Source of the DNA: a virus
Strand: one strand, 5' to 3'
DNA length: 64,000 nt
IMG/VR virus record: IMGVR_UViG_3300021440_000015
Span: 1-64,000 of that record
Within the stretch, counting starts at the first letter, position 1; each line of letters begins with the position of its first letter. Made by a program: the position numbers and the translations under genes. Shown piece by piece: positions 4,308 to 62,909 of the stretch. The notes beneath the pieces were generated by a model. The model was not told the origin of the DNA. It searched no databases and was given only the letters and a program-made list of their open reading frames with translations.

Positions 4308-4342
4308 TTAGAGAATATTTCAATCACATAAACTTAACTTGA
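4308..4342 (+). promoter_or_regulatory. Cassette promoter 1
   Basis: -35-like TTAGAG (4308-4313), 15 nt, then TAAACT (4329-4334) and TTAACTTGA. It is the most divergent of seven copies but keeps spacing and the TCACATA.ACTTAACTTGA block. The transcript should begin near TTGA, just before the leader structure (inference). Confidence 0.7.
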
Positions 4343-4349
4343 GATATCG

Positions 4350-4385
4350 CTAGTGGTTTAAGTTACACATCTGTAACACTGCTGG
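4350..4385 (+). promoter_or_regulatory. Structured leader of cassette 1
   Basis: Outer stem CTAGTGGT (4350-4357) with ACTGCTGG (4378-4385), partly by G-U pairs; inner stem GTTAC/GTAAC (4362-4366, 4373-4377) with loop ACATCT; TTAA between the stems. The ribosome site AAAGAGAT follows. The same fold occurs in six other cassettes with different stem bases. Confidence 0.75.
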
Positions 4386-4399
4386 TTAAAGAGATACTC

Positions 4400-4729
4400 A
4401 TGGCAATCAAAGTTTGCAACGCTTTCAGTCTCAGCATGGTGTCGGCGCTCGTCGCCGACATCAAAGTGATCCAAATCACCCCGGCTGAAGTCAAGGAGTT
4501 TTTGGAGGTAGGGGTGGAAAGCTGTGTCGGTCACGCCGACACAGCCAATGTGTTCAGCCAGCAGCTGGGGGTGCAAATCCCCGCTGCTCGTGCGACAGTT
4601 AGTCTCGCCGATGGCGAGATGATTCTGGTGGGCCAGTACTCTGGTCCACGGCTCCCAGAGGGGGCGACATCGCTGCCCGAAGGGGCAAACATCAAATGGG
4701 TAGTCTTGCTCGTGCGATATCCGGTGTGA
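4400..4729 (+). CDS. AcrIII-1-type viral ring nuclease (DUF1874), copy 1
   Basis: 109 residues. N-terminal 'VCNAFSLSM', central 'SCVGHADTANVF', and C-terminal 'VGQYSGPRLPEG...IKW' are the DUF1874 hallmarks. This family includes AcrIII-1, which degrades cyclic tetra-adenylate and so switches off type III CRISPR effectors. His45 and Glu87 sit where the catalytic His and Glu of archaeal virus members lie. A paralogue is at 21153. The coding DNA is tiled with perfect hairpins (for example 4440-4460 and 4521-4545). It has its own promoter, leader and terminator. Alternative: a ring nuclease with another cyclic-nucleotide substrate. Confidence 0.85.
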   Translation: MAIKVCNAFSLSMVSALVADIKVIQITPAEVKEFLEVGVESCVGHADTANVFSQQLGVQIPAARATVSLADGEMILVGQYSGPRLPEGATSLPEGANIKWVVLLVRYPV

Positions 4730-5938: not shown

Positions 5939-7387
5939 ATGAAGCCTTATATAGAACTCCTCAAGGACATCCGTGATAATGGACATGATCACCCTGATCG
6001 CACTGGAGTAGGTCGTCGATCTATTTTCGGTAGACAAGTCCGATTCAACATGAACGATGGTTTTCCTTTGGTCACTACTCGTAAGATCTTCTTTCGAGGT
6101 ATGAAAGAAGAATTGCTTTGGTTTATCGCTGGTGAGATTGACAACACTTTGCTGAATGAAGCAAATGTGCATATCTGGGATAACTGGGCTGTCACTGAAA
6201 AAACAGTGGATAAGTTCATGGAATACTTCTTGTCTAAGTTTGAATCAGAAGAAGATCGTCAGAGTATGGCCAGTAATGAAATACTCATGGCTAAACTTCG
6301 TGAACAGATCAGTGAGCGTATCGGATCTATCGGTCCTTTGTACGGTTTTAACTGGCGCCATGCCCCTGCTGATGAGATGAGTAACATCCACCAACTTCTC
6401 AGAAACAAACCACCTATCGAAGACATTCCTTCTGATAAAGTAGAAGCTTTTAAAGAAGCTTATAAAGAATATCTTGCTTTTAAAGAAGCGGAAGGTGATG
6501 GAACAGATCCTGTTACAGAGATTGAGTTCATTCAGAAGACTTATGTCTCTAAGGTAGATCAGTTAGGTATTCTTTTGGCTGAACTGAAGAACAATCCTTA
6601 TTCTTCGCGTCTTGTGGTAAGCTCATGGTTACCACAATTCATTCCTGACAATAAGATCTCTCCTGATTTGAATGTATTGTTGGGCGCGGGTGCTTTGGCA
6701 CCATGTCACGTTATGTTCCAATGCTTTGTACAACCTGCTCTCAATGAAGGCGGTAAGAAACGTTTGAACCTACTTATGTTCCAGCGTTAACAACTGAGCG
6801 CTGTGTAGATAGAAATATCTATTTGAAAATTCCTCTAATTGCTGGAAACCCTTGTTAGACTACTAAACCAAAGCGGAGTGTGAAAACACATACGTAACGT
6901 GTTTGAAAATTAGTAGGTAGAGACAATCAGCAGCTAAGCTCCTTTAAACTGGAGAAAGTTCAACGATCATCCCGTAAGGGAGTAGGATCTAGCAGATCCG
7001 AAACGGGGAACCCTTAACAGGTAAAGCTGAAGGTGGTGATATGATCTAATCTTTACAGAGATGTAAAGCCACAGTTAAAAACTGTGATTGTCGGTTGATA
7101 CACCTATAGGTGCTCCATACAACATAGCTCAGTATTCATTGCTATTGCATTTGATTGCTCGACATGTAGATATGGAACCTAATGAGTTCATTTGGTCTAC
7201 TGGAGATACGCACATCTACACAGACCAACTACATTTGATAGATGAACAGATCTCTCGTGAACCCAGACCTCTTCCACGACTTGTCTTTAAAACAGACGAG
7301 ACAGATATCTTTAAAATCAAATCCGAAGATATTGAACTGGAAGGATATGATCCACACCCACATATACCCTACCCGGTAGCTACCTAA
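5939..7387 (+). CDS. thyA: Thymidylate synthase, split by a group I intron
   Basis: Exon 1 is 5939-6787, the intron 6788-7090, exon 2 7091-7387, giving ~381 residues. It makes dTMP from dUMP with methylene-tetrahydrofolate. Exon 1 has 'DRTGVGRRSIFG', 'FPLVTTRKIFFRGMKEELLWF' and the active-site Cys in 'LAPCHVMFQ'; it ends at 'NLLMFQR'. Exon 2 opens with 'SVDTPIGAPYNIAQYS' and carries 'GDTHIYTDQLHL', 'SREPRPLP'. Joining restores the universal QRSxD...G.P.N motif. The protein is longer than E. coli ThyA (264) because of an insertion around 'DKVEAFKEAYKEYLAF'. DHFR follows 1 nt later, so the pair forms a folate/dTMP unit. Confidence 0.93.
6788..7090 (+). ncRNA. Group I intron in thymidylate synthase
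   Basis: 303 nt, no ORF. Exon end CAGCGT (6782-6787) pairs perfectly with the guide GCGCTG (6798-6803), placing the required U-G pair at the splice site. The core has 'ATTGCTGGAAACCC' (P4 side), 'AGTTCAACGATCA' (P7 5' side) and 'GATATGATCTAATC' (P7 3' side). It ends in G at 7090. The first intron codon is an in-frame TAA, so unspliced mRNA stops at once. The core shares a 41-nt identical block (6925-6965) with the helicase intron. T4 td is interrupted a few codons downstream of this site. Confidence 0.9.
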
Positions 7388-9051: not shown

Positions 9052-9086
9052 TTATAAAGTATTTTGGTCACATATACTTCACTTGA
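9052..9086 (+). promoter_or_regulatory. Cassette promoter 2
   Basis: TTATAA (9052-9057), 15 nt, TATACT (9073-9078), then TCACTTGA. Matches the other cassette promoters. Confidence 0.75.
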
Positions 9087-9091
9087 CTATC

Positions 9092-9128
9092 GTTACAGTT
9101 TAATCGAAGCATCTTTCGAACTTGTGAC
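9092..9128 (+). promoter_or_regulatory. Structured leader of cassette 2
   Basis: Outer stem GTTACAGT (9092-9099) with ACTTGTGAC (9120-9128, one bulged T); inner stem TCGAA/TTCGA (9104-9108, 9115-9119) with loop GCATCT. The inner stem sequence differs from GTTAC/GTAAC in cassettes 1, 3 and 7 but pairing is kept. AAGGAGAT follows. Confidence 0.75.
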
Positions 9129-9141
9129 TAAGGAGATAGTA

Positions 9142-9783
9142 ATGGAACAGTTTTCCCTGACATTGGGTGTTGTGTTTTGTACGGTGGTTGCTTTGACCAC
9201 AGGCTGGTCCCTGTTCGGGGACCGGTTGAAGGAGAGTCAAGTGGTCAGGCTTGTCCTGACCATCTGCTGCACCACTTGGTGGTGCAAGACCGCCAAGCTC
9301 CCTAACGGGAGAAAAGTGAAGTGGGTCGAGATGCCAAATTGGTATTGGTTGACCACTATGGTAAGACATCCTGTAACAGGGAAAGTCTTTATGACGAACC
9401 TCACTGATATTGTTGGTAATTTTGGCGGTGGGATGACCATGTCGATCGGTAAGGTCGATTTGGTGCTGACCATGAAAGGTCTCTACAGCGAGGAGACCCT
9501 GAAGTTCATTACGGAGCATGAATTTGGTCACCTTAAGGGTCAACATATGTTCCGACTTGAAGATGCCGGATTGGCAAAATCAATTCAGCGTTTTGAGCTG
9601 GAAGCAGATGCTTATGCGGCATCTGTGGTTGGTTTCCAACAAGCGTATTACGCTTTGATGGAAATTCGTCAGGTAATGACGGATACTCTTCTGGATCATC
9701 CAGAAATTCTGGAATCCCTGGAAGAGCGGGTGTTGGCAATGCGTGAGAAGTTCAAAGCTTCTCAGCAGCCTGTGCTCTGCTGA
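9142..9783 (+). CDS. Membrane-anchored HExxH metalloprotease (M48-like)
   Basis: Start ATG 9142, behind AAGGAGATAG. 213 residues. A hydrophobic N-terminus (residues ~5-22) anchors it to the membrane. 'EHEFGHLKG' (HExxH at 126-130) and 'ELEADAYAA' (152-160) match the zinc ligands and downstream acid of M48/HtpX/BlaR-type peptidases. Shorter than most M48 enzymes. The DNA carries perfect hairpins, for example 9206-9223, 9243-9261, 9268-9286, 9478-9498 and 9744-9764. It could cleave a host membrane or regulatory protein early in infection (inference); target unknown. Confidence 0.75.
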   Translation: MEQFSLTLGVVFCTVVALTTGWSLFGDRLKESQVVRLVLTICCTTWWCKTAKLPNGRKVKWVEMPNWYWLTTMVRHPVTGKVFMTNLTDIVGNFGGGMTMSIGKVDLVLTMKGLYSEETLKFITEHEFGHLKGQHMFRLEDAGLAKSIQRFELEADAYAASVVGFQQAYYALMEIRQVMTDTLLDHPEILESLEERVLAMREKFKASQQPVLC

Positions 9784-9785
9784 TA

Positions 9786-9833
9786 AAAATAACACCCCAG
9801 CCCAAAAGGCCAGGGTGTTATTTTTTTTTTGTT
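9786..9833. terminator. Terminator of cassette 2, bidirectional
   Basis: Stem arms AAATAACACCC and GGGTGTTATTT around a GGCC-containing loop, then a run of T. The minus-strand helicase stop begins at its far end, and the same hairpin followed by TTTTT can end helicase transcription. Confidence 0.85.
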
Positions 9834-11864
9834 TAACTAGGTAGAAACAAAGATTCGTCTGTGTTGGTAGCTACTGACCTAAGCTTTCTAATTGGAATAT
9901 GTTGTATTTCGTTGATATCTTCAGGGATAGGCATGCCCTTAGGAAACTTCAAAATGAAATACTTATAGTCGTCGTTGATCACTGTAGGTAAACGATGTTT
10001 ACCACGCTGCACTGTCAAATAAGTTTCTCTGTTGTGTTTAACCAGATGGATGTAGATTTCTAAGTCTACTTCCTGATCTAGCTGCCTGCTTCCAGAGGTA
10101 TAGCCTTTCTCAGCCACTTCTTTCACAAACTGATCTTCTGCAACACCACCTCTTACCAAAGCTTTAGCCTCAGGAGAAAGTTGATGAGGCGTAACTACGA
10201 ATGTACCTCTCTTTTTGTCCAGTGGATTCGCTATTTTCCACCCGGTGCGCTTACACACCCGCCTATACTTTCATACAGGAACAGACCATATCTTCACCCT
10301 CTGTATAACAGTAGGGTGTTCTCCGCTTCGGATCGCTTGATCCTACACCTTGCTTAAGGGCTGGCCGTTGAACTTTCTCCAGTTTAAAGGAGCTTAGCTG
10401 CTGATTATCCAATTCTTATATTTTTCAAACTATCACGCTCATCGTTTCCGATCACGTTGTAGTATATAAGACTCTAAAGGACTTCCCAGCAATTCAAAGA
10501 AAAACATTAGAGCATCTCTACTCTAACGACCTGTAAATGTTTCCTTTTGTACAAGTTCCACCTGTATTCAAATACCGTGTAATTGTTCTTGCTTGAAGAC
10601 TAATTGATTTAGCTGCCTGTCTTATTGACTCAGCAACTATTTTAGTACCATCCGGCTTAACAATTAAAATTTTACTAAACGGTTTTGATCGTAACATTAG
10701 TTAAGTAGCGCAAAAGTTTCTTACTCGTCTGATCAGATCTCTCATGTCTGTACCGATAGGACCAGATGTAATACATCCTGTCGTAGGCACCATAGCTAAA
10801 TAATCCAGAAACAAACCTTCGATGCTGTAACCCTGGGCTTCCAGTTCAATAACTTTGCTACAGATGTTGCGATAAGACCATTGAGTAGGATCTACCCGCA
10901 TCATTTTAACATGGAAACCGGTTTGCTGCAACTCTTTCTTTACGTAAGACGCCATCTCCTCAACAGAGAGATCTTTCATACCTACGTATTCTCTTGTCTC
11001 GTTGTACTTAAGATACTGATACAAGAACTGAAGATTGTTTACAAGCTCATCCTCAAAAGAGATCCTCAACAATAAAGGTTTCTTACCCGGATCTATATTG
11101 TTAGGTTGGTTCAATCTAGCAATTTGGGCAAATAAAGAAAGATTGAAACCTGTCTTGTATTTATGCTGGAGTGCCGGAGTTATGATAAACTCAGCTGGAC
11201 GTATGCCACCCTGCAACATATCGTTAAGATCAGTCCAACCTGTCTTATAGATACGAGCACCTTCATTGTTCTGCTTGATAGCTGAGAACACTTCTCTCAA
11301 AGATTCATCACTACCCAGATCCACCTCACCCATCACAGCAGGATCTTTAGAGCTTGTGTTCAGCTGTAAAGGTTCTAGTTGACTAATGAGTTCAGCAATA
11401 TAACCGTTGATATCTTTGATGCTATCTCTTTTGTAACGAAAATCCATGCTGTACTTACTAAGCACCTCACCGATCTTGCGCTCTCTGAAATAGTTATTAA
11501 TTGTCTTTCTTGTGTTGACAATAGAACGTTTCAAATTACTTTCAGGAATATTATCCTGCAAACCAGACTGTATGACTTCAAATAAATTGGTGTCATACAT
11601 GCAGTTGTGCTTAATGGTTTGAATCAGAGCGTTTGTATCATATTCATGATCTGGTGGATAACCACACATTTCAAGAACGGTTGTTTTTAATCGAACGATG
11701 ATCTCTTTGTCTGTATTTACATTCAAGGTAGAGGCATCGTCAATGATCTTAATGCTCTCAAGCACAGTTCTTACCAAGTCAGAACTATTTTCTGTTTTCT
11801 GTTTCAGCTGACTTTCACGGAACAAAAGGGTAATGCTTTTAGCAAGCAAAAGTTTATCATCCAT
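9833..11864 (-). CDS. DnaB-like replicative helicase, split by a group I intron
   Basis: Exon 1 is 11864-10704 (387 residues), exon 2 10210-9833 (125 residues), joined to 512 residues. The RecA-like core shows 'ITPALQHKYKTGFNLSL' in the Walker A place (Lys-Thr kept, glycines lost), 'GLFLDYLAMVPTTG' as Walker B, then 'IRRVRNFCAT' joined to 'RGTFVVTPHQLS', the sensor Gln segment. The join gives the same length as E. coli DnaB across this region. It should unwind the replication fork with ATP. The long helical N-terminus (residues 1-190) is unfamiliar. The odd P-loop suggests either a divergent ATP site or reduced activity. Confidence 0.8.
10211..10703 (-). ncRNA. Group I intron in helicase gene
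   Basis: 493 nt on the minus strand. A 41-nt block (10366-10406) is identical to the core of the thymidylate synthase intron (6925-6965), followed by a matching 'GGATC..GCGATCCGAA' hairpin and 'AAGATATGGTCTG' (P7/J8-7 region). Like its relative it starts with TAAC, so an in-frame stop faces the 5' exon, and it ends in G (10211). It carries a small ORF near its 5' end. The exact 5' pairing (P1) is not resolved; the splice sites were chosen from protein continuity. Confidence 0.8.
10518..10697 (-). pseudogene. Homing endonuclease remnant in helicase intron (NUMOD1-like)
   Basis: 59 residues: 'ILIVKPDGTKIVAESIRQAAKSIS' followed by 'ARTITRYLNTGG...KGNIYRS' is the helix-turn-helix DNA-contact module (NUMOD1-like) normally at the C-terminus of HNH or GIY-YIG homing endonucleases. 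No nuclease domain precedes it inside the intron, so it is a leftover tail, or a small DNA-binding protein. It begins 6 nt inside the intron. Confidence 0.55.
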
Positions 11865-14829: not shown

Positions 14830-15726
14830 ATGTCACACCTCAATATACGCGATTATCGAATAGTAGAAGATATACCAATGACAAAGGCTCCGCATGAGGG
14901 ACCAGCTGCTTATATACTTTATAGCACTTTGACCCCTTTGTATTACATTGGTTCTACTAACAATCTTAAAAAGAGATTATATTCTCACAGTTCTGCCTTT
15001 AGAACCGGTTCGGATAAAGACAGTAAGTATTTAAAATTATTCAAAGATAGCCAGGGTGATATTCTTGTAAGATATTTTAAATGCATAGACAGAGAACACG
15101 CTTATCGAAAAGAACAAGAATATATAGATATATGTATTGAAGATGTGAATTGTTGTAATAAAGCCGTCACGACACCAGTCTTTGAAACACTAAGAATAAA
15201 TATTTTAAGACCCAGACACACTGATGAGACTAAAGCTAAAATGTCAGCTTCTATAGCAGCTGCGTACGCCGCTAATCCCAGAAGCCAAGAGACAGTAGCT
15301 AAATGGCGGGAAAGTGTTAAAGATTATACACCCACAGAAGAAACAAAAGCTAAGTGGAGAGCGGCCTCTGATAGAAGACGTGGTATTAAACGCGATCCTG
15401 AAATAGGTAAGAAAATATCCATAGCCAGAATGGGAATAGAATTCTCTGATGAGCATAAGGAAAAGCTTAGTAAAGCTAGGTACTTTCCTGTTACTGTGCA
15501 TGGTGTTACTTATAGTAATAGATCAGAAGCTATGCGTAAATTAGGATTGAGTAAAGGTCAGCTTAATAATGCCATGGGTTTAACGCAAAAACAAACAATA
15601 AAAATTAGCATAAATGACACTGTGTTTGAAACAATTAATGATGCTGTGAGAACATTAGGTTTGTCGAAAGGTCAAATACGCAGAAGACTCGACGACCCTC
15701 GTTTTACCAAATATAAATATGTTTGA
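14830..15726 (+). CDS. GIY-YIG homing endonuclease, free-standing
   Basis: 298 residues. GIY-YIG nuclease domain at residues ~26-110 ('AAYILYSTLTPLYYIGSTNNLKKRLYSH', catalytic Arg in KKRL, Glu in 'YRKEQEYID'). A NUMOD3-like 'RHTDETKAKMSASIAAAY' module and two C-terminal NUMOD1-like helix-turn-helix units ('RSEAMRKLGLSKGQLNNAM', 'INDAVRTLGLSKGQIRRRL') provide DNA recognition. AT-rich relative to the capsid gene. It is bracketed by two near-identical terminators, as if it had been inserted there. It may cut a capsid-gene region or cognate intron-less alleles. Confidence 0.9.
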   Translation: MSHLNIRDYRIVEDIPMTKAPHEGPAAYILYSTLTPLYYIGSTNNLKKRLYSHSSAFRTGSDKDSKYLKLFKDSQGDILVRYFKCIDREHAYRKEQEYIDICIEDVNCCNKAVTTPVFETLRINILRPRHTDETKAKMSASIAAAYAANPRSQETVAKWRESVKDYTPTEETKAKWRAASDRRRGIKRDPEIGKKISIARMGIEFSDEHKEKLSKARYFPVTVHGVTYSNRSEAMRKLGLSKGQLNNAMGLTQKQTIKISINDTVFETINDAVRTLGLSKGQIRRRLDDPRFTKYKYV

Positions 15727-16440: not shown

Positions 16441-19400
16441 ATGATCAAGTATATCATCAAGCGAGATGGAACTAAAGAAGAATATACACCCTCTAAACTG
16501 AACAAATGGGCTATATGGGCTACTGACAGTTTAGGCGATCGTGTGGATTGGTCAGGTGTGGTGCTTGATGCTTTAAGTAACTGTAAAGAGATTGAGAATA
16601 GTCAGAGTCTTCAGAAAGAGTTGATCAACGCTTGTTTGTATAAGAAAGATTGGCCGCATAACGTGATGGCTGGTCGACTGTATGCTGCTTGGTTACATAA
16701 AGCTCTCTATGGTGATGAGATGCCTACGGTTAAGAAGATCAATGAAGATTTGATCAAGACCGGATTGGTTATTGACATGGGATACACAGATGCTGAGTTT
16801 GAAGTAATCGAAAGCATCATAGATCATAAGCGTGATTTTAATTACGCACATAGTCAAATCAAACAAATCCATCACAAGTACAGCATTTCTAATCTGGTAT
16901 CTGGTATCAGGTATGAGACCCCTCAATATACGTTCATGCGTATGGCTATGCGCTTGTCTGATGATATCGAAGACAGTCAAGAAAAGCTTAAGTTGGTGCA
17001 AGAATACTACGATGAGTTTAGTCTGAACCGTCTTAATGCGCCTACACCCAACTATGTGAACTTGGGAAGCCCTCTGAATGGCTACGCCAGCTGCTGTTTG
17101 GTTGAGGTGTCCGATAACAACGAGTCTATCGATTGCGGTGACATGATCGCTTCTAAGATGACAGCTGCTTCTGCTGGCATCGGCACTCATCACAATCTGA
17201 GATCTATCGGTGATCCTGTACGCGGTGGTCGGTTCCCCCATGGTGGTAAGCGTCCTTACTTTGCTACTACAGCTAAGAACACCATCAAAGGTGTGCAAGC
17301 AGGTCGTGCTGGTGCTGCTACATTTTACTTTGACATCTTTGAAAAAGAAGCCAAAGATCTCATCATGCTTCAGAACCCAAGAACTCCTGAAGCCAAACGC
17401 AATCGTGATGTACACTTTGCTGTGATGACTAATAGTTTCTTTGCTAGAAAAGCAAGAGACGATGAGCAGATGTTTTCTTTTAACTGCTACACAGCTCCTG
17501 ATCTTCATGCAGCTATGTTCAGCGGAGACATCGAGAAGTTTGAAGCTTTGTATAAGAAGTACGAAGAAGACGATAACTTTGCTAAAGAGTATGTGAGCGC
17601 TCGTGATCTATGTTTGACTATGTTGACACAGTTTGAAGAGGTATCTACTCTGTATCACTTCAACGTTGAAGAGGCTAATCGCCACACCCCTTTTCAAGAA
17701 CCTATCCATAGTTCAAATCTTTGCGTTGCGCCAGAAACACCAATTCTGACAAAAGAATTTGGTTATGTTAGAATTTCTGAAAAAGTGAATCAAGAGGTTA
17801 GTGTTTGGAACGGTGACGCGTGGTCTAAAGTTACGGTTAAAAAGACTGGTGAAAACCAGCATTTGCAAACTGTATTTACAACAACAGGGACTGTACTTGA
17901 GGCTACAGACTATCACAGATGGTTTGTTCAACTTCAAAACAAACACGGTGCTAAAAAAGATGTCGTCGTGAAAAGAACCACAGAGTTACAACCCGGTGAT
18001 AAACTGATCAAATTCGAAACATCGGCTGTTGATCACGGCAGATCTACTCTGCCACTTGCTTATGAAAATGGGTTCTTTACTGGTAGCGGTACCATTTCTG
18101 GAAAAAATCCAGTAATATATCTTTACGGAAAGAAACGTGAACTTCTGCCTTATTTTCAGGATAAAGAAGGTATTATAAGCGTAACTAAAAATGAGCAACG
18201 GTTCAACATTCGTTATAAGACAGATGTATTAAAGGAAAAATTCTTCATACCTTCCTGTACGCACACCATAAAAACCAGACTTGAATGGTTTGCAGGTTTG
18301 TTAGATTCAGATGGGTGTTTGATGGATAATAAAGGATCTGCTTCTTTACAGATAGTTAGTGCTAATTTTGATTTTCTTTATAGGCTTAAACTGTCTTTAC
18401 AAGAACTTGGTGCGATGACTTCTGTAACCAATGTAGCAGATGCGGGTTTTAAAAGTATACCAAACCATAAAGACGGTAAAACCACCCACTATTGTCAACA
18501 GGAATGGAGACTCTTACTTTCTAATGATGAGTTATATAAACTTATCACTCTAGGTTTAACTTTAAACAGAATCGATCTTTCAAAAGTCAGGCCAGGTAAC
18601 AGAACAGCACGACGTTTTGAAATGATCAAATCTGTCATAGATAAAGGACGTTATGACGATACGTATTGTTTTACAGAACCTTTGAAAGGAATGGGTGTAT
18701 TCTCAGGTGTGCTTACAGGAAACTGTCTGGAAGTTACCGAACCCACATCAGGTTATAATTCGGTGCAAGACCTGTATAGAACTGGTGATTATGGCCATAT
18801 TTCATTCTCACAGACTAATGGTAACATAGTTAAACTTCCTTATAATCTTGAAGTGTCTGTAACTGGCAGGGGTAGGACTTATGCAGGTAGTCTGACAAAA
18901 GGTGAGTTCTTCTCAGTGCCTAATAGTAACACTTATAAGAACTATGTCGTGGGTGATATAGTTAGCAAGGAAATTCCAGGAGAAGTAGCGCTGTGCTCAC
19001 TTGGTGCTGTTGTTCTTCCTAACATTCTTACAGACGAGCAGTATCACAAGACCTGTAAGTTGGCTCTGAGAATGATCGACAGATGTATACATTTGTCTAC
19101 CTATGCTTTGCCACATATCGGTTTCACTGCTAAGAATCGTCTGAATGCTGGCGTTGGACATATTGGACTGGCTACAGTGCTTGCTCGTAAAGGTCTTAAG
19201 TATAGCACGCTTGAAGGTCGTAATGAGATTCATCGTATCTCTGAACGCCATGCCTACTTTGTCATTAAGGCAGCTCTTGAATTAGGTATTGAAAAAGGTA
19301 ACGCTCCTTGGATCCATAAAACAAAATGGGCTAACGGATGGTTACCTATTGATACTTATAAGAAAGCTGTGGATGAGTTGGTCACTACTGATCTTCAGTA

Positions 19401-19887
19401 TGACTGGGAAGCTCTTCGTTCCGATATCGTTAAAAACGGCGGTATTCGTTTTAGCTGTCTGATAAACCTGATGCCTACTGAATCCTCATCTAAAGCTTCA
19501 GGTGTGCCTAACGGTCCTTATCCTATCCGCGCTTTGTCTTTGAAGAAGTCTGATGAGAACAACACAGTGGATTGGGTAGCTACTGATAGTGATCTGTTGG
19601 GTGATAAGTACGAGATCGGTTATGATATCCCTGGTGTAGATATGATCAAAGCTTATGCTGTTATGCAAAAGTTCACTGATCAGTCTATCAGCGTGGATAC
19701 CTATAAAGATAGATCTAAGAATGTGATGCTCAGCGATAAGCAGATTTTGACTGAATACTTTACCATGATTAAGTATGGAGTTAAGTCTAAGTATTACAGT
19801 AATACACTCACCAACAGCAAAGATGGGTCTGGGGAGGTTCAAGAAATGGCTGTGGAAGAGAACTGCGGTGACAGCTGCAAACTTTAA
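16441..19887 (+). CDS. nrdA: Ribonucleotide reductase class Ia alpha subunit with intein
   Basis: 1148 residues, of which 334 (428-761) are an intein; the mature enzyme is 814 residues. ATP-cone at the N-terminus ('IIKRDGTKEEYTPSKLNKWAIWA'), substrate-site Cys in 'SPLNGYASCCLVEV', the radical Cys in 'SSNL-CLEVTEP' (where the intein sits), 'LINLMPTESSSKASG', and the thioredoxin-facing tail 'NCGDSCKL'. It reduces ribonucleotides to deoxyribonucleotides together with NrdB, encoded 11 nt downstream. ATG follows AAGGAAGT. A long-lived dNTP supply fits the phage's thyA and DHFR genes. Confidence 0.95.
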   Translation: MIKYIIKRDGTKEEYTPSKLNKWAIWATDSLGDRVDWSGVVLDALSNCKEIENSQSLQKELINACLYKKDWPHNVMAGRLYAAWLHKALYGDEMPTVKKINEDLIKTGLVIDMGYTDAEFEVIESIIDHKRDFNYAHSQIKQIHHKYSISNLVSGIRYETPQYTFMRMAMRLSDDIEDSQEKLKLVQEYYDEFSLNRLNAPTPNYVNLGSPLNGYASCCLVEVSDNNESIDCGDMIASKMTAASAGIGTHHNLRSIGDPVRGGRFPHGGKRPYFATTAKNTIKGVQAGRAGAATFYFDIFEKEAKDLIMLQNPRTPEAKRNRDVHFAVMTNSFFARKARDDEQMFSFNCYTAPDLHAAMFSGDIEKFEALYKKYEEDDNFAKEYVSARDLCLTMLTQFEEVSTLYHFNVEEANRHTPFQEPIHSSNLCVAPETPILTKEFGYVRISEKVNQEVSVWNGDAWSKVTVKKTGENQHLQTVFTTTGTVLEATDYHRWFVQLQNKHGAKKDVVVKRTTELQPGDKLIKFETSAVDHGRSTLPLAYENGFFTGSGTISGKNPVIYLYGKKRELLPYFQDKEGIISVTKNEQRFNIRYKTDVLKEKFFIPSCTHTIKTRLEWFAGLLDSDGCLMDNKGSASLQIVSANFDFLYRLKLSLQELGAMTSVTNVADAGFKSIPNHKDGKTTHYCQQEWRLLLSNDELYKLITLGLTLNRIDLSKVRPGNRTARRFEMIKSVIDKGRYDDTYCFTEPLKGMGVFSGVLTGNCLEVTEPTSGYNSVQDLYRTGDYGHISFSQTNGNIVKLPYNLEVSVTGRGRTYAGSLTKGEFFSVPNSNTYKNYVVGDIVSKEIPGEVALCSLGAVVLPNILTDEQYHKTCKLALRMIDRCIHLSTYALPHIGFTAKNRLNAGVGHIGLATVLARKGLKYSTLEGRNEIHRISERHAYFVIKAALELGIEKGNAPWIHKTKWANGWLPIDTYKKAVDELVTTDLQYDWEALRSDIVKNGGIRFSCLINLMPTESSSKASGVPNGPYPIRALSLKKSDENNTVDWVATDSDLLGDKYEIGYDIPGVDMIKAYAVMQKFTDQSISVDTYKDRSKNVMLSDKQILTEYFTMIKYGVKSKYYSNTLTNSKDGSGEVQEMAVEENCGDSCKL
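17722..18723 (+). mobile_element. NrdA intein with LAGLIDADG endonuclease
   Basis: Begins with Cys1 ('CVAPETPILT'), has a block-B-like 'ATDYHRWF', a LAGLIDADG motif 'WFAGLLDSDGCL', block F 'DTYCFTEPLKGMGVFSG' and ends 'VLTGN' before Cys+1. The residue before the terminal Asn is Gly rather than His, a known variation. Inserted exactly at the catalytic Cys of the enzyme, so only precise excision restores activity. Base content is more AT-rich than the flanking extein. Confidence 0.93.
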
Positions 19888-21061: not shown

Positions 21062-21096
21062 TTGTAAACTTTTTCAGTCGCATATATTCTATTTGA
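21062..21096 (+). promoter_or_regulatory. Cassette promoter 3
   Basis: TTGTAA (21062-21067), 15 nt including TTTTTCAGTC, TATATT (21083-21088), then CTATTTGA. The TGTAAACTTTTTCAGTC part is identical in cassette 6. Confidence 0.8.
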
Positions 21097-21102
21097 GCTA
21101 TC

Positions 21103-21139
21103 GCTGTGGTTTAAGTTACTTATCTGTAACACTCTCAGC
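21103..21139 (+). promoter_or_regulatory. Structured leader of cassette 3
   Basis: Outer stem GCTG/CAGC plus GGT/ACT, inner stem GTTAC/GTAAC with loop TTATCT. AAGGAGATAGTC-ATG follows. Confidence 0.75.
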
Positions 21140-21152
21140 TAAGGAGATAGTC

Positions 21153-21491
21153 ATGAGCATTAAAGTATGCAACGCATTCTCACTGAACATGTTGGCGACA
21201 TCCGTCGCCAACATTAACATTCAAGAAACGACTGCGGCGGATGCCGCTTACTTGATCCAAAAAAACGGAGGTCCAGAAAGCTGTGTCGGTCATGCTGACA
21301 CAGCTCGAATTTTCGGTCAGCAGCTGCTGACCGAAATCCCACTTGCACGAGTGACCGTGCAATTCACCCACGATGAATTCATCGTGGTCGGACAGTATTC
21401 TGGCCCACGGTTGCCCGAAGGGGCAGCCATCAAATGGTACGTGGTACACGTAAGTGTACCTGAATCAGTTGAGGAAACCACACTCGACTGA
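21153..21491 (+). CDS. AcrIII-1-type viral ring nuclease (DUF1874), copy 2
   Basis: 112 residues from ATG 21153. 'VCNAFSLNM', 'SCVGHADTARIF' (His47), 'IPLARVTV', 'GQYSGPRLPEG' (Glu89) and 'IKW' align with the copy at 4400, roughly half identical and with different C-termini. Expected role: cleave cyclic tetra-adenylate made by type III CRISPR systems. Perfect inverted repeats tile the gene: 21189-21214, a 26-nt palindrome at 21311-21336, 21368-21387. Several lie at the same codons as hairpins in copy 1 but with different bases. The two copies may differ in substrate or speed. Confidence 0.85.
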   Translation: MSIKVCNAFSLNMLATSVANINIQETTAADAAYLIQKNGGPESCVGHADTARIFGQQLLTEIPLARVTVQFTHDEFIVVGQYSGPRLPEGAAIKWYVVHVSVPESVEETTLD

Positions 21492-26838: not shown

Positions 26839-26873
26839 TTGTAATAAGTTTCAATAACATATACTTAACTTGA
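26839..26873 (+). promoter_or_regulatory. Cassette promoter 4
   Basis: TTGTAA (26839-26844), 15 nt, TATACT (26860-26865), then TAACTTGA. Confidence 0.78.
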
Positions 26874-26880
26874 GATATCG

Positions 26881-26916
26881 CTGTAGTTTAAGTCGTTCTT
26901 TCTGCGACACTATCAG
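26881..26916 (+). promoter_or_regulatory. Structured leader of cassette 4
   Basis: Outer pairs CTG/CAG and AGT/ACT, inner stem GTCGT/GCGAC with a 7-nt loop. The inner stem differs from the other cassettes, retaining pairing. AAGGAGATACTC-ATG follows. Confidence 0.72.
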
Positions 26917-26930
26917 TTAAGGAGATACTC

Positions 26931-27437
26931 ATGGCACAAATATTTGAAAAATTTTCGTTTGCGCTCTTGGGCGGTTGTATGGGCGGTCCGAATGACGATA
27001 CTTTACATCGAACGGATAGAACACCTACCACAGAAGCAGGGACAATATTCTACCGACACTGTCAACGTTTGATCAAGGAGAAAAAGACTCTGGTGTTTAA
27101 TCGAGAGTGGGGGAATGGCACAGGATACTATGACGGTATCTTGTACGAAAAGGAAATCTCTGATGGAGACATGTATGTCTCTTACGACTGGGAAACCGGT
27201 CGTTTTTTGATTGTGCAAGGTAGTGAACATGGACACATATGTGTCCATGAGCGGTATAAAAGTGGTAATGAAGGAATCTTTGTCAAGACTACTAAAAATA
27301 AACTGCTGTCTCTAATGGGTATTCCTACAGGAGCGGTAGGTCTCAGTTCGATGATTCAACTCCTGGGGGACTCCTGGGATGGGTCCGGTGCCATCGCCAA
27401 AAACATCAAGGAGTTGAAACAACTCCTGTGTAAATAA
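26931..27437 (+). CDS. Cassette 4 protein, unknown
   Basis: 168 residues. N-terminus 'FSFALLGGCMGGPNDDTLHRTD' is glycine-rich; the rest has aromatic and charged residues without a known motif ('REWGNGTGYYDGILYEKEISDGDMYVSYDWE'). Cytoplasmic by composition. The DNA contains perfect palindromes including a 22-nt one at 27228-27249 and a hairpin with arm AGGAGTTG near the end, as in the other cassettes. An early anti-host or counter-defence role is inferred from the cassette only. Confidence 0.65.
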   Translation: MAQIFEKFSFALLGGCMGGPNDDTLHRTDRTPTTEAGTIFYRHCQRLIKEKKTLVFNREWGNGTGYYDGILYEKEISDGDMYVSYDWETGRFLIVQGSEHGHICVHERYKSGNEGIFVKTTKNKLLSLMGIPTGAVGLSSMIQLLGDSWDGSGAIAKNIKELKQLLCK

Positions 27438-30210: not shown

Positions 30211-32391
30211 TTGGATACAAACTTCTATAAATTGTACCTTGAGGCCAATACGAAGCTTGTGAAAACTATATGCATCAAATCAGAAACAGCAGCTGAAATG
30301 ATGCAGGATTACCTTTTGACTTCGAAAGGTATCAGTAAACCTGACGACAAACGACAATGGAAGTACTACAAAAACATCTGTGGAATTTATCATTCCACAG
30401 ACACAGATATGTATGTCACATCATTAGATACGCTCGAATCCATAGTTTTTTCTAAGGAAAATCTGGTTACTCACTCAGCCACTAAGGCTGCATACGGATA
30501 CGGTAGTAGATACTACTACAGTCTGTTAAAAGATCATCCCGAACAAGAGTTGCTTATCAACGGTATATTGCTACCCGCTGATATGGAAAAAACATTGGCT
30601 TCTCCTGATTGGACCATAGTCAGTTACGATCCCGCTCTTGTGGAACCACAAGAAACCACCCTGATATCCAGAATGCAAAGCTACATCTGGAACTATCAGA
30701 AGAGATGGCATGTACAAGCTTTTGGTTTAACAGATAGTCTATATAACGCAGCTCAGTTTGCCATACTTTGTTTAAACTTAGTCAGCAAGCTTTTAAATCT
30801 AAGAGCTGAGAAATGTAAAACTTTTGAAGCTCATAGTTTTCACATCAGAGAATACCTGACAAGTCATGGTAGATTAGACAGGTATATGCCGTACATGACT
30901 TTCAAACAAGTGATGTTTCTTTATAGAAACATTAACTATTTAGAAAGAAACTCTGGTAAAGTAGAACAGTTCAAACTTCTGATAGAGAAGATACTCTCAG
31001 ATCGAGGCATACCTTTGGCTGAATTGTCTGTAAGACAGTTAGCTGCTTTTGATGATAAGATCTATCCAGAAGTAAGGGTTAGAAAGAAACCTCTTAATCT
31101 AGAGACCAACGTACCTGAGAAAGATTATTTTTCTTTAGATAAGTTGTATGAATACGAAAGACCTACAGCTGTCGGTAATATACCTTATCTGAATGACAAT
31201 ACTTCTACGATTACTCATCTGTTGAAAACCTCTTCCTCTAGTGTGATACAGAGCAAGGATCTTCAGTCGTCTATGCTGGATTACACAGATTCAGTACCTG
31301 ACACCATGGAAGAAGTGTTGGTTAGAACTTGGGTGCAACTGACCAGAATGGGATACTACGATGTATATACATCGTTTAAAGACCCTAAGTCTTCTCAGAT
31401 ATACACAATGAAAACAGCAGATGCTTTCATTTACTATACTTATATCCTACATAAGAGATTTAAGTTAGGCAGTGAATATGTACCTGATTTCATCAATATC
31501 AAGGAAGTAAGGAATCCAAGACCTTCTCTAACTACCATGTTAAAAGGTGTTAAGAAGAAGATCTTTACGGATAAGCCTCAGATAGCACAAGCTTTACTAG
31601 ACGACATGCCACATGTCATACCTGTTTACTCTACAGTTTCTTTTTTGGAATTGGTAAACAGATTGTATAATTCAGTACAGAGACAATGGTTTGTGCTTGG
31701 TAATACAGGCGATATGTTTGATAGAGGTCAGATAGCTGAGATGATCCATACTCTATATAGAGATAAGAGATACAGCTTAGTGCCTACTCAAACTCTCTTT
31801 ACTGATTGGTTATCTGAGAAGAATCTAACTACCTATGACTATCTAGATAGTGAAGCTGATGATCTCATGAAGAACATCTTTATGGCTGCCACAGGCTATG
31901 TCATAGATGAGACTAAGCAGATGGCTAACGTACAGAAAGCCATGATCAGTATCATGGTACAGCTGAGTAGCTATAGCGTACAGTATCTCAGAGAGATCAA
32001 TGACAAAGAAGTCGTACCTGTTAACTGGGCTGCTATCAGAGTAGGGGAAAGACTCTGTACAGTAGGTTTGGAAGAATCTGCTAAGGTAGAAGTCAATGTT
32101 CTTAATACGAATACTGAAGTAATCGTAGATAGAAACATAGAGACTGTAATAGATAAAAACTTTGATGTCTTTGATGTAAGTGTCAGTCTAGATAAAGTTA
32201 TCACTTTGAAAAATGATGCTTTGCTAGAAGGTACTTACGACACAGATGTAAGTTTACTATTCCCAGGACATGTTATGGAAGCTGATTATCCAGGTTATGT
32301 ACCAGGACTATACAGCCAAAAAGGTTATTTAGGACATGAGATCTATGAATCTCTGACTCCTGAAGAAAAGTCAGTTTTAAAATTTGCCTGA
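30211..32391 (+). CDS. Large virion structural protein, unknown
   Basis: 726 residues, start TTG 30211 behind GGAGA. Mostly helical, rich in Tyr, without transmembrane segments; 'YGYGSRYYYSLLKDHPEQELLINGILLP' and 'HIREYLTSHGRLDRYMPYMTFKQVMFLYRNI' are typical sections. The final ~100 residues are beta-rich. It leads a co-directional run with 32407, and lies beside the portal, so a neck, tail or baseplate part is likely but unproven. Confidence 0.6.
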   Translation: MDTNFYKLYLEANTKLVKTICIKSETAAEMMQDYLLTSKGISKPDDKRQWKYYKNICGIYHSTDTDMYVTSLDTLESIVFSKENLVTHSATKAAYGYGSRYYYSLLKDHPEQELLINGILLPADMEKTLASPDWTIVSYDPALVEPQETTLISRMQSYIWNYQKRWHVQAFGLTDSLYNAAQFAILCLNLVSKLLNLRAEKCKTFEAHSFHIREYLTSHGRLDRYMPYMTFKQVMFLYRNINYLERNSGKVEQFKLLIEKILSDRGIPLAELSVRQLAAFDDKIYPEVRVRKKPLNLETNVPEKDYFSLDKLYEYERPTAVGNIPYLNDNTSTITHLLKTSSSSVIQSKDLQSSMLDYTDSVPDTMEEVLVRTWVQLTRMGYYDVYTSFKDPKSSQIYTMKTADAFIYYTYILHKRFKLGSEYVPDFINIKEVRNPRPSLTTMLKGVKKKIFTDKPQIAQALLDDMPHVIPVYSTVSFLELVNRLYNSVQRQWFVLGNTGDMFDRGQIAEMIHTLYRDKRYSLVPTQTLFTDWLSEKNLTTYDYLDSEADDLMKNIFMAATGYVIDETKQMANVQKAMISIMVQLSSYSVQYLREINDKEVVPVNWAAIRVGERLCTVGLEESAKVEVNVLNTNTEVIVDRNIETVIDKNFDVFDVSVSLDKVITLKNDALLEGTYDTDVSLLFPGHVMEADYPGYVPGLYSQKGYLGHEIYESLTPEEKSVLKFA

Positions 32392-44713: not shown

Positions 44714-44748
44714 TTATAAACTTTTTCAGTCACATATACTTAACTTGA
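44714..44748 (+). promoter_or_regulatory. Cassette promoter 5
   Basis: TTATAA (44714-44719), 15 nt, TATACT (44735-44740), TAACTTGA. Identical to cassette 6 over CTTTTTCAGTCACATATACT and TTGA beyond. Confidence 0.8.
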
Positions 44749-44753
44749 TTATT

Positions 44754-44791
44754 GCTGATAGTTTAATCTAGGTTTTTCTAGAACTGTTAGC
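44754..44791 (+). promoter_or_regulatory. Structured leader of cassette 5
   Basis: Outer stem GCTGATAGT with ACTGTTAGC (9 pairs, two G-U), inner stem TCTAG/CTAGA (44767-44771, 44778-44782) with loop GTTTTT. AAGGAGATAATC-ATG follows. The clearest example of the fold. Confidence 0.8.
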
Positions 44792-44804
44792 TAAGGAGAT
44801 AATC

Positions 44805-45431
44805 ATGAAAGTTGTTTTCAACCTGTCCCCCGCGCAATCCTTGGTGGCTATTGCCATAAAAGCAAAAAAGTCAGCCTTGATGCGGCTGGAAGCCGGGGAA
44901 GGGCTGGGGAAACATTTCCCCAATTTGCTGAACGGCGAATTGCATTCAGCCCTTGGGGCTGAATGGGAGTTCAAATACGACGGCAATCTCGCCGTCGTAT
45001 TTAACGACGGCATGGCCGGGAAACAGACACTAGAGTTGTCCGAAGACAACTCTAGTGTAACCTACGAGGGTGGTCGGACCACCCTCGTAGACGGCATGGC
45101 CGGGTGTATCTTGACCCTGCGAGAAATCGCAGGGGGTGATGAGAAGAGTCTGAAGGTGATCTCTTACGAGACTACCGATCCCAGCCTAAGCTGGTGGGAA
45201 ACCACTAGCATGGCTATCCGACGTAAGTCGGATGAGGAGTTAGCTGCTCTGTCAAAGCAACGGAAAACCTGGCGTTTTCTAGATCAGGAACTGGACCACG
45301 AGGCCCGTCGGCGTATTCCGACAAAATTAGCCGACCTCGTGTCGGCTGGGAAAACAAAGCTGGTCTCGGCGAGTTTCACCCCCAGTGAAATCCGCCGTTA
45401 CACGGTTCTAAAGCCGTGTCTGGTTGAGTAA
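44805..45431 (+). CDS. Cassette 5 protein, unknown, extreme hairpin-coded gene
   Basis: 208 residues without a known motif; N-terminal half beta-rich, C-terminal half basic and helical ('AIRRKSDEELAALSKQRKTWRFLDQELDHEARRR'). The coding DNA is the best case of hairpin tiling: perfect stems at 44944-44964, 44975-45000, 45029-45056 (12 bp) and 45062-45090 (13 bp), with many shorter ones after. Far more GC-rich than neighbours. Host-takeover or counter-defence role inferred from the cassette. Confidence 0.7.
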   Translation: MKVVFNLSPAQSLVAIAIKAKKSALMRLEAGEGLGKHFPNLLNGELHSALGAEWEFKYDGNLAVVFNDGMAGKQTLELSEDNSSVTYEGGRTTLVDGMAGCILTLREIAGGDEKSLKVISYETTDPSLSWWETTSMAIRRKSDEELAALSKQRKTWRFLDQELDHEARRRIPTKLADLVSAGKTKLVSASFTPSEIRRYTVLKPCLVE

Positions 45432-45476
45432 AATAACACCCCTAGCCATAACAGGCCGGGGGTGTTATTTTTTTTG
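45430..45476. terminator. Terminator of cassette 5, bidirectional
   Basis: Arms AAATAACACCCC and GGGGTGTTATTT with inner GCC/GGC, loop ATAACA, T run. Serves the convergent spike gene as well. Confidence 0.92.
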
Positions 45477-45477
45477 T

Positions 45478-49122: not shown

Positions 49123-49157
49123 TTGTAAACTTTTTCAGTCACATATACTTAACTTGA
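49123..49157 (+). promoter_or_regulatory. Cassette promoter 6
   Basis: TTGTAA (49123-49128), 15 nt, TATACT (49144-49149), TAACTTGA. It begins 3 nt after the stop of the preceding gene with no terminator between. Confidence 0.8.
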
Positions 49158-49162
49158 TGTAT

Positions 49163-49203
49163 AGCTATAGTTTAATAGATCTGTTCTGATCTGACTACTA
49201 GCT
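49163..49203 (+). promoter_or_regulatory. Structured leader of cassette 6
   Basis: Outer AGCTA/TAGCT and AGT/ACT, inner AGATC/GATCT with loop TGTTCT. GAGGAGTACATT-ATG follows. Confidence 0.72.
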
Positions 49204-49215
49204 GAGGAGTACATT

Positions 49216-49308
49216 ATGGATTGGCTCGATATCATTGTGATCGCCTTTGCGGCGATCACCACCCCAGCAATTGTCTGGGAAGCAGTGACGGATCGCCGCC
49301 GTCGCTGA
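49216..49308 (+). CDS. 30-residue membrane micropeptide, cassette 6
   Basis: Directly behind the leader and GAGGAG. One hydrophobic helix (residues ~5-21) and a C-terminal 'TDRRRR'. The helix is coded by a perfect hairpin (arm GATCGCC). Alternatively a leader peptide whose translation controls the second gene 137 nt downstream. Too short for family assignment. Confidence 0.6.
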   Translation: MDWLDIIVIAFAAITTPAIVWEAVTDRRRR

Positions 49309-49445: not shown

Positions 49446-49751
49446 ATGAGCATGATACCGCTCAGAGAAAGGGCAGAAGGCTGGACAACTGATGAGTCAG
49501 TTGTCCGTCAGCTGCGGCAGAAGGCCGCAACGAAGGCGGCGGAAATCGCCGCTTGTGGTGATGATGACTACATCCATTATAAGGATGTGGTGCTAGCCAC
49601 AACGCCAGTTGGTGAAAACTGGCACGAGTACGAAACACTTCTTAGCACTCGCGACGAAGAGTTAAAGAAAGAGCTACGTCCAGTTGATGCCTGGATGTGG
49701 AGCGGCAGGAGCAAAAAATGGGTATACCGTTGCAACGGTTACCTAGATTAA
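49446..49751 (+). CDS. Cassette 6 second protein, unknown
   Basis: 101 residues, AGGAGAAACAAA upstream. Charged, helical N-terminal half and a Trp-rich C-terminus ('DAWMWSGRSKKWVYRCNGYLD'). Perfect hairpins include 49483-49506 (10 bp, loop TGAG). The 49309-49445 spacer contains an AGAGGTT/AACCTCT hairpin and ends in its own ribosome site. Function unknown. Confidence 0.65.
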   Translation: MSMIPLRERAEGWTTDESVVRQLRQKAATKAAEIAACGDDDYIHYKDVVLATTPVGENWHEYETLLSTRDEELKKELRPVDAWMWSGRSKKWVYRCNGYLD

Positions 49752-49796: not shown

Positions 49797-50417
49797 TTAA
49801 ATGCTTAGTCTTCTTTTGATATAAGCTTCTAGCTCAGCTATCTTAGCCAAAGCCTGATCATGTCTGTATAACAGTTCCATATATCTGGCTCTGTCAGTAC
49901 CTCTACCTTGAGATACACCGGCTCTAGCAGTAGTCAGCGTATCATGCTTACCAGAGGATACTAACACCACACGACTGCTTTCCACAAACTTCACTGTAGG
50001 TACTACACCCAGAGTATCCATACACAGATTACGCACTTCTGTTTGTAAGAAGCTCAGATCTCTGTCTACAGGAAAAGAAGGTAGAGAAGCAGTGAGTACA
50101 TATGACCTGTAAGGTATGCCGTTTACCATAGGGTAGGTAGAGATGTACCTAGCAGGCACATATAACCAATGTCCTATGTCAGACTGTAGAGAAACGATAT
50201 GCATGTTGTTCTGCAGATCGAGTTCATAGTCAGCATCTGGTATCCGGTACTTAACGTAGATATCCTTATAAGGATCTTCGTTATTAGCCAGATAGTCATT
50301 TAAGGATCTTATACCCTGACACGTATATCTTTCACCTTCTGTGATAATAGTATCAAAAGGAGCTAAAAGTTTATACGAGCCAGAAGATCCTATCGTGGGT
50401 AATACATTATCACTCAT
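49797..50417 (-). CDS. Structural protein, baseplate or tail region
   Basis: 206 residues. Beta-rich with a short C-terminal helix ('LYRHDQALAKIAELEAYIKRRLSI'). Start overlaps the stop of the upstream gene (50414) by 4 nt. 'DRDLSFLQTEVRNLCMDTLGVVP' is unfamiliar. A baseplate role is inferred from the shared operon. Confidence 0.5.
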   Translation of the reverse strand: MSDNVLPTIGSSGSYKLLAPFDTIITEGERYTCQGIRSLNDYLANNEDPYKDIYVKYRIPDADYELDLQNNMHIVSLQSDIGHWLYVPARYISTYPMVNGIPYRSYVLTASLPSFPVDRDLSFLQTEVRNLCMDTLGVVPTVKFVESSRVVLVSSGKHDTLTTARAGVSQGRGTDRARYMELLYRHDQALAKIAELEAYIKRRLSI

Positions 50418-62620: not shown

Positions 62621-62640
62621 GTCATATATATTCTATTTGA
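62606..62640 (+). promoter_or_regulatory. Cassette promoter 7
   Basis: GTGTAA (62606-62611), 15 nt, TATATT (62627-62632), CTATTTGA. Like cassette 3 in its -10 region. Confidence 0.75.
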
Positions 62641-62646
62641 GCTATT

Positions 62647-62683
62647 ACCAATGTTTAAGTTACACATCTGTAACACTATTGGT
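62647..62683 (+). promoter_or_regulatory. Structured leader of cassette 7
   Basis: Outer stem ACCAAT/ATTGGT (62647-62652, 62678-62683), inner stem GTTAC/GTAAC with loop ACATCT. AAGGAGATACTC-ATG follows. The outer stem bases are unique to this copy. Confidence 0.78.
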
Positions 62684-62696
62684 CAAGGAGATACTC

Positions 62697-62909
62697 ATGA
62701 TTCAATTCAACAAAGAAAACATCATTGCTTTTGCAGTGGGCGCCGCAGCAATCACTGTTGTCGATGCTGCCTGTCGCGCAATCTACCGCGCGCGCAAAAA
62801 CAAAAAAGCTGCAGAAGCCACAAACAAAGCAGCTGCAAAAGAAGCTGGCGAAACAGCAACCACTGCTGGCGAAACAGCAGCGGCAGCCGCCGCAGCTGCT
62901 GCAACCTAA
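62697..62909 (+). CDS. Small membrane protein with Ala-rich tail, cassette 7
   Basis: 70 residues from ATG 62697. Hydrophobic N-terminal helix ('IIAFAVGAAAITVVDAA'), basic patch ('RAIYRARKNKKAA') and a tail of Ala with two AGETA units coded by a direct repeat (62844-62858 and 62865-62879), each forming a GCTG/CAGC mini-hairpin. Probably an inner-membrane protein with a cytoplasmic tail. Function unknown. Confidence 0.65.
   Translation: MIQFNKENIIAFAVGAAAITVVDAACRAIYRARKNKKAAEATNKAAAKEAGETATTAGETAAAAAAAAAT

Follow-up and report, generated by a model that had tools for sequence, protein, structure and literature searches.

Selection on the structure of coding sequences was reportedly described by Katz and Burge in 2003. 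That such selection exists is already known (PMC6544989), as is the GORS of RNA viruses, in which coding RNA also shows pervasive internal pairing and which has been linked to persistence and innate defence. In the ORFs described by Gebert et al. (2019; PMC6544989), synonymous codons fold far beyond chance, as they do in the genes reported here; such structured ORFs amount to approximately 2–3%, are scattered over genomes, with DNA viruses low among viruses, and have been ascribed to stability, translation, or evasion of guide RNAs. Three other known systems bear a likeness to this locus: ompA-type 5′ UTR stabilisers, which likewise place structure (here predicted) at the mRNA 5′ end, 5′ stems being reported as protective (PMC7509114); phage morons and accessory cassettes, which also lie between conserved genes as small, autonomously transcribed units and are exchanged as blocks; and the viral ring nucleases of the AcrIII-1/DUF1874 family, to which two of the genes below belong by profile match. 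In the literature searched, we found neither a paper on hairpin-built coding sequences in phages nor a modular, exchangeable gene class that combines hairpin-built ORFs with a covarying leader.

The window analyzed here is the whole 64,000-nucleotide stretch, positions 1–64,000 of an incomplete viral contig of 120,257 bases (IMG/VR record IMGVR_UViG_3300021440_000015). The contig stretches searched had no DNA-level similarity to annotated phage records; the UvsX-like protein of the window phage is closest to that of Burkholderia phage FLC9 (55%), followed by other phiKZ-like phages. Searching IMG/VR with the promoter block described below retrieved three related contigs (G003, G004, and G005) and, at a greater distance, G001, which has only the promoter type in common with the cassettes of the window phage; a UvsX search added a more diverged phage, G006, to the comparison set. 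G003 encodes chimallin (a 622-aa protein, E 5e-27 to PhiPA3 PhuN). Because this sister genome carries chimallin, the window phage, whose own contig is incomplete, very probably belongs to the nucleus-forming jumbo phages (Chimalliviridae). At the Rfam gathering threshold, the window holds only two group I introns, and nothing matched at the cassettes. One intron (RF00028, 69 bits; 6778–7068, plus strand) lies apparently within a thymidylate synthase gene (5939–6790, 7088–7387), and the second (85 bits; 10262–10563, minus strand) lies between divergent DnaB-like helicase pieces (9833–10258, 10701–11864). The window also contains a 1148-aa ORF resembling the large ribonucleotide reductase (16441–19887), with a seeming in-frame intein-like insert (CVAPETPILTKEFGYV...LTGNC), and a candidate GIY-YIG-like homing endonuclease (14830–15726), so named from its sequence.

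Nearly a dozen cassettes are placed between conserved genes. They form a modular phage family, each unit running from a promoter through a structured, covarying leader and either one or two small ORFs to a terminator (Table 1). The promoter is a CATATACTTAACTTGA-type block, the leader is approximately 58 bases long and ends in a Shine–Dalgarno sequence, and AGCC..GGCC-type terminators similar to that behind ORF 44805 (ORFs are called by the position of their first base) close the other cassettes. Some cassette ORFs are very short (18–30 aa). An 18-codon ORF (MEVHEITLTEVEWLFYFG) lies behind a cassette-type promoter at contig positions 111890–111946 (L004:7890–7946); it is near-identical in G003, with one residue different, and a hairpin overlaps its 3′ end. 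A degenerate leader scan returned only chance matches in addition. No protein relatives of the 44805 and 21153 products were found in IMG/VR, and none were found for the slot-flank protein 21630; the AlphaFold model of the 44805 protein (pLDDT 42) was too poor for use.

Table 1. Cassette features in the window, in window positions
Feature	Position	Strand	Remark
Leader, cassette A	4341..4399	+	
Cassette A ORF, DUF1874/STIV_B116-like (AcrIII-1 family), hairpin-rich	4400..4729	+	PF08960 33.8 bits; stem z 5.4
Leader, cassette B	9085..9141	+	
Cassette B ORF, M48-like, HEFGH motif, hairpin-rich	9142..9783	+	Pfam E 0.0019, below curated cut-off; stem z 6.0
Leader, cassette C	21095..21152	+	Slot empty in sister phage G005
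Cassette C ORF, second DUF1874/AcrIII-1-like paralogue, hairpin-rich	21153..21491	+	PF08960 29.8 bits; stem coverage 0.36, z 7.7
Leader, cassette D	26872..26930	+	
Cassette D ORF, modest hairpin excess	26931..27437	+	Stem z 2.2; MFE z −4.5
Shared CATATACTTAACTTGA promoter block, 44805 cassette	44733..44748	+	
−10-like element TATACT of cassette promoter	44735..44740	+	Same block at other cassettes and in sister phages
Structured leader, 44805 cassette: P1, P2, UUAA bulge, P3 hairpin, Shine–Dalgarno in bulge	44747..44804	+	
Cassette ORF, 208 aa, tandem-hairpin coding sequence, without detected relatives	44805..45431	+	Stem coverage, see text; MFE z −10.4
Hairpin, 10 bp, loop 3	44943..44965	+	
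Hairpin, 12 bp, loop 6	44973..45002	+	
Hairpin, 14 bp, loop 4	45027..45058	+	Longest perfect coding stem in any cassette gene
Hairpin, 13 bp, loop 3	45062..45090	+	
Hairpin, 8 bp, loop GAAA	45115..45134	+	
Terminator hairpin and T run, end of 44805 cassette	45432..45477	+	
Leader, cassette F	49156..49215	+	
Cassette F first ORF, 30 aa, one 9-bp hairpin	49216..49308	+	
Cassette F second ORF, hairpin-rich	49446..49751	+	z 4.1; unrelated ORFs instead in sister phages
Leader, cassette G	62639..62696	+	
Cassette G ORF, Ala-rich, without stem excess	62697..62909	+	z −0.3

The initial annotation had described gene 44805 as a series of perfect hairpins; every one of them is present, with positions within 1–2 bases, as are the additional stems ATCCGAC, GAAAAC, GCCGAC, and ACACGG. 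We then measured stem coverage, the share of bases in perfect stems of ≥7 bp with loops of 3–10 nt, against synonymous-codon shuffles that leave protein and codons unchanged. The coverage of gene 44805 is 0.262, compared with a null mean of 0.02 and a shuffle maximum of 0.150 (0/10,000 reach 0.262). The gene ranks first among 116 ORFs of the contig that were scored; the five top-ranked ORFs are all cassette genes or ORFs overlapping a cassette gene. Five further genes had been named as sharing the trait, and, scored with 6-bp stems, it is strong in 21153 (z 7.0–7.7), 9142 (~6), 4400 (5.4), and 49446 (4.1), with 26931 reaching only 2.2. Beyond the window, excess is also found in the cassettes at 83169–83462 (z 3.8) and 115300–115554 (z 3.4, scored as the slightly longer ORF 115267–115554). 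The generalization to cassette genes thus holds for most of them, with 62697 and 84275 (z 1.6) as exceptions in the window phage, and the cassettes of G006 are weak (z 0.6–3.7). The excess lies mainly at loops of 3–10 nt, sometimes extends to 30, and is absent in most genes at 31–80 nt.

Neighbouring genes were said to lack the trait, which is correct for the strong excess, confined to cassettes, and not for a mild trend throughout the genome: the median z of the whole window phage is approximately 1.0, compared with 0.12 in FLC9, so that the cassettes stand at the far end of a trend. With a threshold of at least 0.18 (18%) of bases in perfect stems of ≥6 bp, 13 of the 19 ORFs in cassettes qualify, counting orthologues, as against about 3 of about 1,000 other ORFs in related genomes; the counts are 0/103, 1/140, 1/89, and 1/210 for the non-cassette ORFs of four contigs, 0/370 in FLC9, the nearest named relative, and 0/98 in more distant relatives. 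Of the non-cassette exceptions, at least one seems to be a cassette gene read in an alternative frame, and a second seems to be antisense to a cassette gene. Folding energies agree: relative to synonymous shuffles, the MFE z of 21 cassette ORFs ranges from −1.7 to −10.4 (mean −5.5), compared with −2.1 ± 1.6 for 51 other genes. In absolute terms the values are −40.7 (cassette) and −25.3 (control) kcal per 100 nt, a difference that comes partly from the higher GC of the cassettes. The overall paired fraction rises only slightly, from 0.595 to 0.639. The strongest folding excess among the controls belongs to a non-cassette gene on the minus strand, 49797–50417 (MFE z −6.9). Shuffling synonymous codons locally, within 15 codons, gives a higher null, and most cassette genes still lie above nearly all of 200 shuffles; the clear exceptions are 62697, 84275, G005_3627, L064_4319, and the 30-aa ORF 49216. 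Hence, neither a general lack of excess over synonymous shuffles nor an equal excess elsewhere was found, and the initial claim was not refuted.

Could composition produce this pattern, if the cassette genes were GC-richer recent acquisitions from a host in which genes tend to be more folded in general? Their GC (0.44–0.58, in a contig mostly at 0.35–0.44) fits such an origin, and so does their depletion of UA at codon junctions, which resembles that of FLC9 genes. However, GC and codons are held constant in the synonymous shuffles, GC-rich FLC9 (listed ORFs, GC approximately 0.5–0.6) has no excess, and the trait is absent from DUF1874 homologues elsewhere, which makes a compositional origin extremely improbable. 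As a full explanation, GC or codon bias is ruled out by the shuffles together with FLC9. UpA avoidance was also considered; because cassette junctions (0.70 of expected) are no more depleted than those of FLC9 genes (0.71), it is not diagnostic.

The DUF1874 family permits the same protein to be compared inside and outside a cassette. The products of 4400 and 21153 score above the curated PF08960 cut-off of 26 bits, and profile searches with them matched AFV3-109, 2X4I, STIV B116, and 6SCF, with solved structures of the family besides 6SCF among the hits. The two diverged DUF1874/AcrIII-1-like paralogues are thus found in one phage, one cassette each. An active-site histidine has been reported for this family (PMC7293037); in the three cassette paralogues a GH motif is invariant and, in the alignment, appears to correspond to the GH of AFV3-109. 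At least two cassette messages probably encode counter-defence proteins, namely DUF1874/AcrIII-1-like ring nucleases. Stem coverage is 0.19, 0.27, and 0.36 in the three cassette members, compared with 0.00–0.09 in four homologues from unrelated viruses and a bacterium. The hairpin trait tracks the cassette, not the protein family.

The content of the slots also changes between phages. On the two sides of the 44805 slot, the window phage and G005 have sequence identities of 96.8% and 96.7%, and the ORFs in between (208 aa and 66 aa, respectively) share no protein similarity; each of these unrelated ORFs is built of hairpins (z 9.3 and 4.8). Slot F shows the same kind of replacement for its second ORF (101 vs. 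107 aa), again with both unrelated ORFs hairpin-rich. In slot G, the G005 counterpart is unrelated to 62697 and hairpin-rich (z 5.9), and a relative of this ORF (39% identity) sits in slot F of G006; therefore, genes move between slots. Slot G of G006 (30859–31656, L077) carries a gene that has no coding hairpins and specifies a tandem-repeat protein of 265 aa (HREDGPA...NGxKxWY units). In G005, the 21153 slot is reduced to the leader, four codons, and the terminator. Empty cassettes, in which the terminator follows the leader almost at once, lie at 91924 and 155463 of the reversed G005 contig; at 155463, a truncated leader is directly joined to the terminator.

The encoded proteins are constrained, with dN/dS of 0.07–0.29 between cassette homologues; together with the recognizable protein families, these values indicate that the cassette proteins matter. 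They also weigh against a reading in which the structured transcripts act as decoys for, or substrates of, host RNases or RNA chaperones, so that the RNA itself is what acts and the ORF is of secondary importance. The very short ORFs and the empty cassettes would suit such decoys, which we nevertheless judge quite improbable. In the 26931/97294 pair (dS approximately 2.2, dN/dS 0.07), both members show folding excess (MFE z −4.5 and −7.3), and its persistence at this dS means that the excess is maintained or regenerated. Compensatory evolution of individual pairs in coding stems was not above controls among orthologues (35% vs. 35% of changed pairs); since changed pairs are kept no more often than in control stems, individual stems turn over. 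A post hoc subset of orthologues with ≥74% identity gave 47% vs. 35%, which we treat as weak.

Stem turnover, frequent cassette exchange, and the perfect, short-loop form of the stems, which is the expected product of template-switch mutation, would all accord with an origin in DNA, whereby template switching or quasi-palindrome correction perfects palindromes, the cassettes are hot spots through their frequent exchange, and RNA structure is a by-product. The two origins differ in their imperfect pairs: G·U is stable only in sense RNA, its antisense counterpart is A·C, and a DNA process is symmetric. We therefore counted the exceptions in stems of ≥7 bp with at most one non-Watson–Crick pair. 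The single exception was G·U in 38 cases and A·C in 7 in the cassettes, whereas the counts were 185 and 176 in the other genes of the phage, as strand-symmetric decay predicts. Synonymous shuffles averaged 15.2 G·U and 10.9 A·C, and 0/60 reached the cassette ratio; for the window phage alone, the counts were 21 and 6, with 2/60 shuffles reaching the ratio, and these are the conservative figures because orthologues are not independent. The excess of G·U over A·C indicates that selection sees the sense RNA rather than DNA palindromes, and no other result here speaks as strongly for this. The asymmetry disfavours a template-switch or palindrome origin, to which we give little probability, and selection on sense-RNA structure in cassette mRNAs is highly likely. 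The initial proposal of an mRNA that forms beads of stems and still encodes protein is supported by the MFE z (−5.5 vs. −2.1), the G·U:A·C counts (38:7), and dN/dS.

Structure also extends to the leaders. That of the 44805 cassette folds at −17.9 kcal/mol (z −4.0), and most of 16 leaders can adopt a common fold consisting of P1, P2, a UUAA bulge, a short P3 hairpin, and a bulged Shine–Dalgarno. In the predicted P1, the first bases past the promoter, the presumed 5′ end as placed from the −10-like element, would pair with the bases directly before the ATG. In the RNAalifold consensus of P2 and P3, 8 of 10 pairs change on both sides in some sequence yet stay paired, and P1 pairs covary too (pair 4 is, for example, U-A, G-C, U-G, or A-U). 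The fold is conserved and its stems vary, with an invariant GUUUAA segment. Such a combination is typical of a protein-binding element, and ChmC/Imp6 has been described as a phage-mRNA binder (PMC13282480). The hairpins might thus be platforms for a phage RNA-binding protein (an export or translation factor, e.g., ChmC/Imp6) by which cassette mRNAs would be singled out for export, localization, or preferential translation, with the UUAA-bulged leader as its recognition site. Loops in the coding regions, however, have no common size or motif, so a specific binder does not explain beads along the whole ORF, and we consider this role unlikely.

What purpose would the folds serve? We lean tentatively, at somewhat under an even chance, towards protection, whereby the folds would armour cassette mRNAs, which must survive in the host cytoplasm, against ribonucleases or RNA-guided defence. 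The leader would close the presumed 5′ end, the hairpins would fill the body, and the terminator hairpin would guard the 3′ end; the messages would be armoured because few long accessible single-stranded stretches remain for single-strand-specific ribonucleases (e.g., HEPN effectors) or crRNA guides. RNase III normally needs a duplex longer than 14 bp; perfect coding stems in cassette genes are ≤14 bp. A stabilising effect on mRNA is known for 5′ stems as well as for terminator hairpins (PMC7509114), and Cas13 prefers accessible single strands (PMC13288109). Shielding from CRISPR type III/VI, a purpose suggested by the initial annotation, is plausible because nucleus-forming phages are still open to RNA-targeting immunity (PMC13282480) and two cassettes encode DUF1874/AcrIII-1-like proteins. 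A more far-reaching version, which we hold to be rather doubtful, is that of a dedicated armoured-message gene class in nucleus-forming phages with mRNAs open to RNA-targeting immunity: ORFs for counter-defence and takeover would be swapped into cassettes that supply a leader closing the 5′ end and would then evolve hairpins resisting RNA-guided or HEPN-type destruction, a counter-defence at the level of nucleic acid instead of protein.

Two other suggested purposes fared less well. Resistance to RNase E-type decay by hiding sites was not supported, as RNWUU motifs in cassette genes are neither depleted nor hidden and are more frequently open than those of shuffled sequences (70 vs. 46 ± 7.5). 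Pacing of ribosomes is likewise without support. Strong mRNA stems can slow translation, and hairpins could set the pace of ribosomes, help proteins to fold during translation, or tune the expression of proteins toxic in excess; pacing should follow protein architecture, but stem positions shift among homologues of one protein family, and unrelated proteins have the trait in common, so this explanation is very unlikely. Protection itself has points against it: the open RNWUU sites, the small change in paired fraction, the turnover of stems, the two window-phage ORFs free of excess, and the weak cassettes of G006.

In DNA organisms, selection on coding structure has mostly been recognized as a diffuse statistical trend; here it is extreme and confined to one exchangeable class, and its presence in genes for unrelated proteins at the same slot constitutes a clean natural experiment on why mRNAs fold. 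If the folds protect messages, these phages, with DNA that is already shielded, would possess an additional and new level of counter-defence, and stem density combined with the covarying leader might serve to mark anti-defence genes of jumbo phages that have so far gone unrecognized.

Like the structured ORFs of PMC6544989, cassette genes fold more strongly than synonymous shuffles of the same protein, but they are gathered in a single exchangeable family of cassettes whose shared leader covaries. GORS is genome-wide and found in RNA viruses, whereas here certain mRNAs of a DNA phage carry short local hairpins, and the strong excess is found only in cassettes, with a mild one elsewhere in the genome. 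Homologues of the AcrIII-1/DUF1874 family examined outside cassettes have no coding hairpins, unlike the cassette members. In contrast to integron arrays, the phage cassettes have their own promoters and occupy many separate sites. They differ from morons in their common covarying leader, in their hairpin-built ORFs, and in the empty cassettes that keep leader and terminator. Compared with the ompA type, P1 of the cassette leader is predicted to close the whole leader against the start codon and to leave the Shine–Dalgarno in a bulge, and the leader sequence varies between cassettes while its modelled fold does not.
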